This document shows positions 4,023-40,878 of a stretch of DNA of 45,496 bases, one piece after another. The translations under genes and the position numbers were made by a program. Below the pieces are notes generated by a model that saw only the letters and a program-made list of their open reading frames with translations, was not told the DNA's origin and searched no databases. The stretch spans positions 1 to 45,496 of the forward strand of contig VERN01000002.1 of NCBI GenBank assembly GCA_018882635.1, written 5' to 3'. Origin of the DNA: Beijerinckiaceae bacterium (lineage in GTDB: Bacteria > Pseudomonadota > Alphaproteobacteria > Rhizobiales > Beijerinckiaceae). Position 1 is the stretch's first letter; the number at the start of each line of letters is the position of its first letter.

Positions 4023-4277
4023 ATGACCGTTCGATATTCGATCGAAATAATTTCGCGTCTGGTGAACCGCCATTTATCGGCCCTCGTTTCTGAAGCGCGC
4101 CTCAACGGTATTGAACTCGAAGATCTGACAATTGAGCTGGCGGCCCATGCAAGCTGTGCAGCCCTTAGCTTCTGGACAGCAGACGATCTTCATGGCCTGC
4201 TGGATGCTGCCGCCGCCGAAATCAACACGCGCGCAGACGCCGATCTGAGCCGCGTTGAAGCGGCAGGGTCGGCCTGA
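4023..4277 (+). CDS. Small conserved-looking hypothetical protein (84 aa)
   Basis: ATG at 4023 preceded by TTAGGAG; helical composition; no family recognised. Confidence 0.55.
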   Translation: MTVRYSIEIISRLVNRHLSALVSEARLNGIELEDLTIELAAHASCAALSFWTADDLHGLLDAAAAEINTRADADLSRVEAAGSA

Positions 4278-4424: not shown

Positions 4425-4841
4425 ATGACCACTCGATCCAACGACCCTGACCTGCCTTCGGCCACCACTGACGAGCAACTGCCCCTGCTGGTTCGGCTCG
4501 AGCTTGAACTTGTGCGCATGCGGCGTCGCCTAATCGGTGACGAACAAAGCGATCCTGTCTGGGCCATGGTGCTTGAGCTCTGCGCAGCCCGGCTTGAGGG
4601 ACGCGAACTGTCCGTCACGAGCCTCTGCTTGGCCTCAGGCCTGCCCGTGACGACAGCCCTGCGCCGTCTGGATGAGCTGGAACGGGATGGTAAGATCACG
4701 CGCAACCCCGACCGGACCGATCGCCGTCGCGTCTTTGTGGCCCTGGACGCCCAGTTTCATGACCGGATCCTCGTTCAACTCCTCGCCATGAACCGACTGA
4801 GGCAAGACCTGCTCCCCATCGCGACCAATGAAGCGCTTTAA
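4425..4841 (+). CDS. MarR-like winged-helix transcriptional regulator
   Basis: ELSVTSLCLASGLPVTTALRRLDELERDGKITRNPDRTDRRRVFVAL is a typical wHTH plus wing. Start at MTTRSND. Confidence 0.7.
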   Translation: MTTRSNDPDLPSATTDEQLPLLVRLELELVRMRRRLIGDEQSDPVWAMVLELCAARLEGRELSVTSLCLASGLPVTTALRRLDELERDGKITRNPDRTDRRRVFVALDAQFHDRILVQLLAMNRLRQDLLPIATNEAL

Positions 4842-4859: not shown

Positions 4860-5050
4860 AATACTAATGGGCAGGCATGCTGCCATATGCGTTGTTTGCA
4901 GACCTCGTTCGCGACATATTCATGTCGGTTTTCTTGAGAGGCACCTACCCCCTCCCGGTGCCGGGCTCGCGCAAACCGTTCCCCTCTGGAAGTTTTCAGG
5001 CATCGGCCTGATCTGACTTCAAGGCCCGATCTCAAGATCGGGCTTTTTCT
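4860..5050 (+). ncRNA. Candidate structured small RNA or long structured 3' UTR ending in an intrinsic terminator
   Basis: Hairpins GGCAG-GCATG-CTGCC (4870-4884), CGACAT-ATTC-ATGTCG (4912-4927), GGCACC-TACCCCCTCCC-GGTGCC (4940-4962), TCAGGC-ATCG-GCCTGA (4996-5011); long-range GTTTGC (4894-4899)/GCAAAC (4971-4976) and CCTC (4903-4906)/GAGG (4938-4941) pairings; terminator at 5024-5050. Confidence 0.45.
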
Positions 5051-5052
5051 TT
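5024..5052 (+). terminator. Rho-independent terminator
   Basis: GCCCGATCT-CA-AGATCGGGC followed by TTTTTCTTTTTG. Confidence 0.85.
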
Positions 5053-5154
5053 TTGTGGCGCAATCTTTAGCTGCAGCGGGACGATGTTGAGATCAAATCG
5101 TGCCTCAACGATTTGGAACGCAATCAGGCGCCCCTCAAGCGCCAGCGATAGCAC

Positions 5155-5186
5155 CCATAAAAAATGGCCGCTCGAAAGCGGCCATT
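5155..5186 (-). terminator. Rho-independent terminator of the aminotransferase gene
   Basis: AATGGCCGCT-CGAA-AGCGGCCATT; minus strand runs into TTTTTTATG. Confidence 0.75.
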
Positions 5187-5216
5187 CTCTAACGTCCCTG
5201 AAGGGAGCCTCGATAC

Positions 5217-6461
<1,245 letters not shown>

Positions 6462-39530: not shown

Positions 39531-40878
39531 TCGCGCGCAGACCGCCCAACGGTGAATCGCTCAGCGTGGCCTCGCCCCCATGCGAACGCGCAATATCACG
39601 CGCAATCGCTAAGCCAAGACCCGTGCCACCATCATCAATGTTGCGTGCATCATCGAGCCGCACGAAAGGCTTGAAGACTTCATCGCGCTGATCAGCCGGA
39701 ACACCCGGCCCATCATCATCAATATGGATCGTCAACCAACGGCCTTCATGCACGCCCGACAGGGCCACACGATCGGCATGACGTCCCGCATTGATAACCA
39801 AATTCCAAAGGCAGCGACGGAACGCATCAGGCCGCACCGTCACGATCGGATCACCCGCAAAATGGGCCGTCGCAGGATGGCCCTGCCTTTCGGCATCGGC
39901 GCGCAATTCATCAAGCATCACCGCAATATCCGCAGGCGCGGCTTGTTCACCCGCATCGCCACGCGCAAACGCCAGATAGGCTTCGAGCATGCGCGACATC
40001 TCATCAACATCTTTGCGCAACGCATCGGTTTCTGCGCCTTCATCCATCAAAGCGAGTGACAATTTGAAGCGCGTGAGAATGGTGCGCAAATCATGGCTGA
40101 CACCATTGAGCATCGCCGTGCGCTGCTCGATAGCGCGCTCGATGCGGCGCTTCATCTCGATAAAAGCAAGCCCCGCCTGGCGCACTTCACGCGCGCCGCG
40201 TGGCCTGAACTCGACGTCACGGCCCTTACCAAACGCGTCCGCCGCATCGGCAAGCCGCATGATCGGACGAATCTGATTGCGCAGAAACAAAACTGCAATA
40301 CCAATCAGCACCAGCGATGTGCCGATCATCCACATCAGGAAAATGTGAGAATTTGACGCATAAGTCTGCGAACGCCGCGTCAAGACGCGCAATACACCCT
40401 TGTCGAGCTGAACACGAATTTCAACGAGGTTCGACCGGCCAACCGTATCGAGCCAAAACGGCCGGCCGATCTGGCGCCGGATCTCATTCGATAAGGAACG
40501 GTCGAGCACCGAAAAAAAGGGCTTGTCGGCCGGAGGCGGTAACGGGCCGGGTGGCAGAATATCAACGTCAAGATTAAGCCGATCCCCAGCAATGCGTGTG
40601 AGCGTCTCATAATCAGGATCTTGCGGATAGGATTCTGCAATATCGATGAGCGCTGCAATATCTTGCGTCACAGCGGCGGATAGACGGCGCGTCACCGTTT
40701 GCCAATGGCGCTCCATAAACGCATAGGCGATCACTGATTGCAGGATCACCATGGGCGCTATGATGATGATGAGCGCCCGCGCGAACAGGCCTTTCGGCAT
40801 CCAACCCGCAATCCAGCGCGCGAGGCGGCGATACAGGATCGAGATCATGCCCAATGGGTGTTCGACGCTGGCCATCAA
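39511..40878 (-). CDS. HAMP-domain sensor histidine kinase (EnvZ-like)
   Basis: Two TM segments, HAMP, GVSHDLRTILTRFKLSLALM (H box), NLVINAGRHAD (N box), IDDDGPGVP, GGTGLGLAIARDIARSHGG. Confidence 0.95.
   Translation of the reverse strand: MMASVEHPLGMISILYRRLARWIAGWMPKGLFARALIIIIAPMVILQSVIAYAFMERHWQTVTRRLSAAVTQDIAALIDIAESYPQDPDYETLTRIAGDRLNLDVDILPPGPLPPPADKPFFSVLDRSLSNEIRRQIGRPFWLDTVGRSNLVEIRVQLDKGVLRVLTRRSQTYASNSHIFLMWMIGTSLVLIGIAVLFLRNQIRPIMRLADAADAFGKGRDVEFRPRGAREVRQAGLAFIEMKRRIERAIEQRTAMLNGVSHDLRTILTRFKLSLALMDEGAETDALRKDVDEMSRMLEAYLAFARGDAGEQAAPADIAVMLDELRADAERQGHPATAHFAGDPIVTVRPDAFRRCLWNLVINAGRHADRVALSGVHEGRWLTIHIDDDGPGVPADQRDEVFKPFVRLDDARNIDDGGTGLGLAIARDIARSHGGEATLSDSPLGGLRATVRVPV

Follow-up and report, generated by a model that had tools for sequence, protein, structure and literature searches.

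Locus and neighbouring genes

The analysed window comprises 45,496 nt of contig VERN01000002.1 (Beijerinckiaceae bacterium, assembly GCA_018882635.1). Within it, a gene for a MarR-like winged-helix protein and a convergent aatA-type aminotransferase gene (the latter outside the system described here) flank an intergenic region (Table 1) in which an initial annotation had placed a 190-nt RNA with four hairpins and its own terminator. A small-RNA gene is indeed present, yet it is shorter than first described: the predicted transcript spans ~124 nt, most likely from position 4927 to about 5050. Orthologues of the MarR-like gene (68-78% identical) lie upstream of the sRNA in the two other genomes of the genus (G001, strain TNE-4, and G002), and all three members of the genus retain, together with these two genes, a small gene that lacks a Pfam match (4023-4277; 63-69% identity). 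At 5160-5190, on the minus strand, a hairpin with a T-run (AATGGCCGCTCGAAAGCGGCCATT) faces the sRNA terminator and is probably the terminator of aatA.

Table 1. Coordinates of the features at the sRNA locus (window positions)
Feature	Position	Strand	Evidence or remark
MarR-like winged-helix gene, upstream of sRNA	4425-4841	+	MarR_2 E 2.6e-5, just under Pfam cut-off
Promoter/operator block TAATGGGCAGGCATGCTGCCATATGCGTTG	4865-4894	+	Near-identical in three genus members, flanks diverged; contains hairpin 1 of the initial annotation as DNA dyad
-35 element TTGTTT	4892-4897	+	17-nt spacing kept in own genome (G000), G001, G002 and Alsobacter
-10 element CATATT	4915-4920	+	Aligns with CATAGT/CATATA/GATATC in relatives; 17 nt from TTGTTT
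AbcR/ar15-type sRNA, predicted transcript	4927-5050	+	ar15 27.8 bits; R1 111 bits (R1 training set includes this very sequence); covariation
Stem-loop 1	4927-4977	+	Minimum-energy fold; compensatory pairs in alignment A3
Anti-Shine-Dalgarno motif 1, CUCCCG	4952-4957	+	Loop 1 and first stem base; CUCCCG in 59/68 homologues downstream of lsrB
Anti-Shine-Dalgarno motif 2, GUUCCCCUCUGG	4978-4989	+	Single-stranded between stem-loops 1 and 2; GUUCCC in 61/68 lsrB-downstream homologues
Stem-loop 2	4989-5020	+	Minimum-energy fold; double compensatory changes in 4/6 inner pairs
Intrinsic terminator hairpin and T-tract	5021-5054	+	Stem 5021-5031/5036-5046; double compensatory changes in 6/10 counted pairs
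aatA-type aminotransferase, convergent neighbour	5217-6419	-	Aminotran_1_2 E 2e-81; outside the system

Assignment to the AbcR family

The AbcR (alpha-r15) family turns off nutrient-uptake genes in alphaproteobacteria. We consider it very probable that the sRNA of the window is a divergent orthologue of this family (RF02345), equipped with its own promoter and terminator and acting in an AbcR-like manner. While RNAs of the AbcR kind are already known, this locus adds a divergent member that scores below the Rfam cut-off and is positioned away from the usual activator gene.

The search of the whole window against Rfam, a check that the initial annotation had proposed, recovered no family at its gathering score (hence 6S, SRP and tmRNA were rejected) and returned sub-threshold matches to suhB/MmgR and ar15; those to CC0196, anti-hemB, BjrC68 and CcsR1 were weak or terminator-driven and were set aside. 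When the ar15 model was run against the entire own genome (E up to 10), the predicted transcript was the single match (27.8 bits, E 0.0014), short of the gathering score of 40. The permissive threshold alone means little, since a match at E up to 10 was likewise obtained in 12 of the 14 unrelated genomes used as controls (in none at E up to 0.01). Among 298 genomes of the window's family, 64 matched ar15 at E up to 0.01 and only two passed gathering; as most of the matching loci that were fetched adjoin lsrB, we conclude that this branch escapes the curated cut-off.

In a DNA search covering 100 related genomes, the region was recovered from both same-genus genomes at 75-79% identity, and its core from several family members; plasmid records contained no match to it. 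From nine window-clade and Chelatococcus-type sequences (the window's included) we built a covariance model, R1, which at E up to 0.01 matched 102 of the 298 family genomes, against the two retrieved by ar15 at gathering, and thereby extends the range of AbcR to a branch below the Rfam cut-off. R1 also matched, at the coordinates of ar15 and with E-values of 1e-7 to 1e-5, tandem loci of another family; these were absent from its training set, reach up to 127 bits with ar15 and adjoin lsrB, and are judged from this tandem arrangement and score to be AbcR of the Rhizobiaceae type. Homology to AbcR/ar15 was thus recovered by reciprocal model search. A second R1 match in the window (40512-40580, 15.9 bits) fell within an ORF resembling a histidine kinase gene and was discounted as noise; a locus picked up through a 29-bp BLAST match (L009) gave no R1 match, and another (L032; 26.6 bits, lsrB absent) is a probable false positive. 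Two tandem copies of the RNA adjoin lsrB in Chelatococcus composti (G019; L004:1472-1601 and 1722-1850), as do AbcR1/AbcR2 in Rhizobiaceae, and likewise in C. sambhunathii (L097). A literature search, carried out in a limited collection in which absence is not proof, did not find AbcR mentioned together with Methylobacterium or Beijerinckiaceae.

Membership in the sister family suhB/MmgR (alpha-r8, RF00519), which shares clan CL00108 with ar15, has to be weighed here, as the suhB model scored higher than ar15 (32.9 bits, E 5e-5, on 4974-5059). That score is nonetheless below the required 41 bits and covers only the similar, terminator-bearing 3' half, leaving unexplained stem-loop 1, which suhB/MmgR RNAs do not have. 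Moreover, the alpha-r8 core UUUCCUCCCU (PMC12559287) was not found in 4927-5050, and both the full-length ar15 match and the lsrB linkage of the relatives favour AbcR, so that a suhB/MmgR identity appears highly improbable.

The AbcR assignment agrees with the dimensions of the RNA, given that AbcR1 and AbcR2 have published lengths of 121 and 114 nt and three stem-loops (PMC8844928, PMC7143759). With AbcR1/AbcR2 of Sinorhizobium, Agrobacterium and Brucella, the window RNA shares its predicted length, the stem-loop number, the terminator, an anti-Shine-Dalgarno motif in loop 1, GUUCCC between stems 1 and 2, the reciprocal model matches and (in its relatives) the linkage to lsrB. It differs from them in scoring below the Rfam cut-off, in carrying CUCCCG instead of CUCCCA as motif 1, in being a single copy in its genome and, within its genus, in not adjoining lsrB and in having the strict LsrB/VtlR box replaced. 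Of the two models that had been invoked for an independent sRNA with a terminator and a C-rich anti-Shine-Dalgarno-like loop, the homology tests single out AbcR; the CcsR1 (RF02791)/cuckoo RNAs have such a loop as well, but they differ in architecture, and with 12.7 bits the CcsR1 match stayed far below its cut-off of 65.3.

Structure and covariation

The region folds more stably than its dinucleotide shuffles (z -4.4), as does 4927-5050 alone (z -4.0). The RNA consists of a stem-loop with a C-rich loop (CUCCCG), the single-stranded GUUCCCCUCUGG, a second stem and the terminator. In the minimum-energy fold, the outer stem of stem-loop 1 (GGUUU 4927-4931 with AAACC 4973-4977) encloses the C-loop hairpin only, followed inwards by the pairing of UGAG (4935-4938) with CUCG (4966-4969) and by the inner stem GGCACC/GGUGCC. 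This inner stem (4940-4945 with 4957-4962, around the 11-nt loop TACCCCCTCCC at 4946-4956) corresponds to the third of the hairpins described initially; the other listed motifs (GGCAG/CTGCC 4870-4884, CGACAT/ATGTCG 4912-4927, TCAGGC/GCCTGA 4996-5011 and the terminator with its T-tract) are likewise present as sequence. By contrast, the closed multi-branch fold that had been proposed (4894 with 4971, 4903 with 4938) is missing from the transcript's minimum-energy fold.

Because the RNAalifold consensus on one MAFFT alignment (A2) mispaired stem-loop 1 and was rejected, the structure that we counted was taken from individual folds of the aligned sequences. The fold of the transcript, for which compensatory changes had been suggested as a check, was supported in a plain MAFFT alignment of nine homologues (A3): double changes were present in 14 of 31 pairs, a result that none of 500 shuffles equalled, and slid versions of the structure failed. 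The three-stem structure had 95.7% of its cells paired, a figure favoured by the derivation of the structure from folds of these same sequences. A larger alignment (A4), fitted to the model and containing four fragmentary or off-target matches, displayed double changes in 26 of 31 pairs and is for these reasons only supporting. Near-invariant in the homologue alignments are CUCCCGG and CCGUUCCCCUCUGGA. The notion that the hairpins have clustered by chance near the end of aatA or of the MarR-like gene, with which the missing Rfam match above gathering would agree, is contradicted by these covariation counts, by the sequence conservation across the family and by the matches in 102 of its 298 genomes, and we give it a negligible probability.

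Promoter and operator

Among same-genus sequences the promoter block and the RNA are kept, while the 3' end of the MarR-like gene and the sequence past the terminator have diverged. The start of the transcript was placed by analogy: in several relatives, an LsrB/VtlR box (GCAT-N3-TG-N3-T) starts exactly 61 nt before the first GG of the RNA, and the abcR1 promoter of S. meliloti carries its box at -61 to -49 (PMC8844928). Since 4865-4926 would thus be promoter, neither hairpins 1 and 2 of the initial annotation nor its GTTTGC/GCAAAC closure are supported as RNA structure: relative to the predicted start, hairpin 1 occupies -57 to -43 of the operator region, and hairpin 2 overlaps the -10 element and is absent in the two same-genus relatives.

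An origin of the RNA by processing from the 3' UTR of the MarR-like mRNA, which had been left open beside an independent gene, would fit with its beginning 86 nt past the MarR-like stop codon, with no terminator seen in between, and with the pairing of the two being kept in the genus. As the intervening promoter-like block is conserved in position with its fixed 17-nt spacing, and homologues elsewhere are located downstream of lsrB and not of a MarR-like gene, we hold this origin to be very unlikely and favour an independent sRNA gene. Some read-through from the MarR-like gene may also occur.

Relatives from Alsobacter and Chelatococcus carry the strict LsrB/VtlR box, which is missing in the window's genus, where it is degenerate and another conserved dyad stands in its place; the -61 to -49 segment of the window (4866-4878) holds AATGGGCAGGCAT, which does not conform to the strict box. 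It is conceivable, if rather doubtful, that AbcR has been rewired in this genus, unlinked from both lsrB and the LsrB box and controlled by another regulator (possibly the adjacent MarR-like protein) through the dyad ATGGGCAG-GCATG-CTGCCAT.

Linkage to lsrB and its loss

A location beside lsrB/vtlR is common among AbcR RNAs but not required. In four family relatives (L004, L005, L007, L008) a LysR gene of the LsrB/VtlR type immediately precedes the RNA. Thirty ar15 loci of the family were fetched, one of them from the window's genus, and an lsrB orthologue adjoins 27 of the 29 others. When the search started from the LsrB protein, an R1 match lay downstream of lsrB on the same strand in 66 of the 80 loci from named organisms (e.g., Chelatococcus, Bosea, Microvirga, Salinarimonas, Alsobacter), at 94-581 nt (median 187 nt); one of these matches was weak (L078, E 0.0024).

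The own genome encodes lsrB (73% identical) on a different contig than the RNA, and the R1 search of that lsrB locus (L011) gave no match; in TNE-4 the two are about 17 kb apart. In two genomes of genus g5 (G006, G047), lsrB, aatA, the RNA and uvrB occur within about 12 kb, and likewise within 7 kb in G121, while in Alsobacter metallidurans the RNA is about 1.3 kb from aatA. From these arrangements, it seems that the RNA was parted from lsrB by local rearrangement. In the window's genus the RNA is separated from lsrB, although its surroundings are conserved, and the operator of the RNA has diverged.

At 14 lsrB loci (L075-L077, L079, L080, L082-L084, L086, L087, L089, L090, L092, L094) the RNA is not alongside, and most of the lsrB genes closest to that of the own genome are among them. 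As R1 at E up to 0.01 found no copy in seven genomes with such RNA-less loci and only a weak one in two, the RNA may have been lost or have strongly diverged there. A genome series in which regulator gene and sRNA come apart makes the evolution of LsrB-AbcR control testable.

Anti-Shine-Dalgarno motifs and candidate targets

In Brucella, AbcR RNAs pair with target mRNAs through M1 (CUCCCA in hairpin 1, published also as CUCCCC) and M2 (GUUCCC, between hairpins 1 and 2; PMC5461406), and in S. meliloti two anti-Shine-Dalgarno motifs repress transporter and metabolic mRNAs, the RNAs binding Hfq (PMC8844928). The window RNA has CUCCCG and GUUCCC at the same positions: the former matches M1 in five of six bases and is the usual form in lsrB-linked relatives, and the latter is an exact M2 (4978-4983). 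The most conserved element, overlooked initially, is the whole of motif 2, which also occurs in high-scoring ar15 loci of another family.

By analogy with these systems, the RNA most likely acts in trans, repressing transporter and metabolic mRNAs through anti-Shine-Dalgarno pairing. It would be transcribed from its own promoter, starting near 4927 and ending at the terminator near 5050; the CUCCCG loop and the single-stranded motif 2 would pair with Shine-Dalgarno regions, chiefly in mRNAs of ABC-transporter binding proteins and metabolic enzymes, and, together with Hfq, would block translation and promote mRNA decay.

Pairing predicted at the starts of 26 genes for substrate-binding proteins, set against 43 other genes from the window, gave a weak, marginal preference (p 0.046 for motif 1, 0.22 for motif 2; start codons chosen automatically), and owing to its weakness this comparison was kept out of the evidence. 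Two livK-type substrate-binding-protein genes (L204, L207; Peripla_BP_6) can pair with motif 2 over an extended stretch, which makes them reasonable first candidates for targets.
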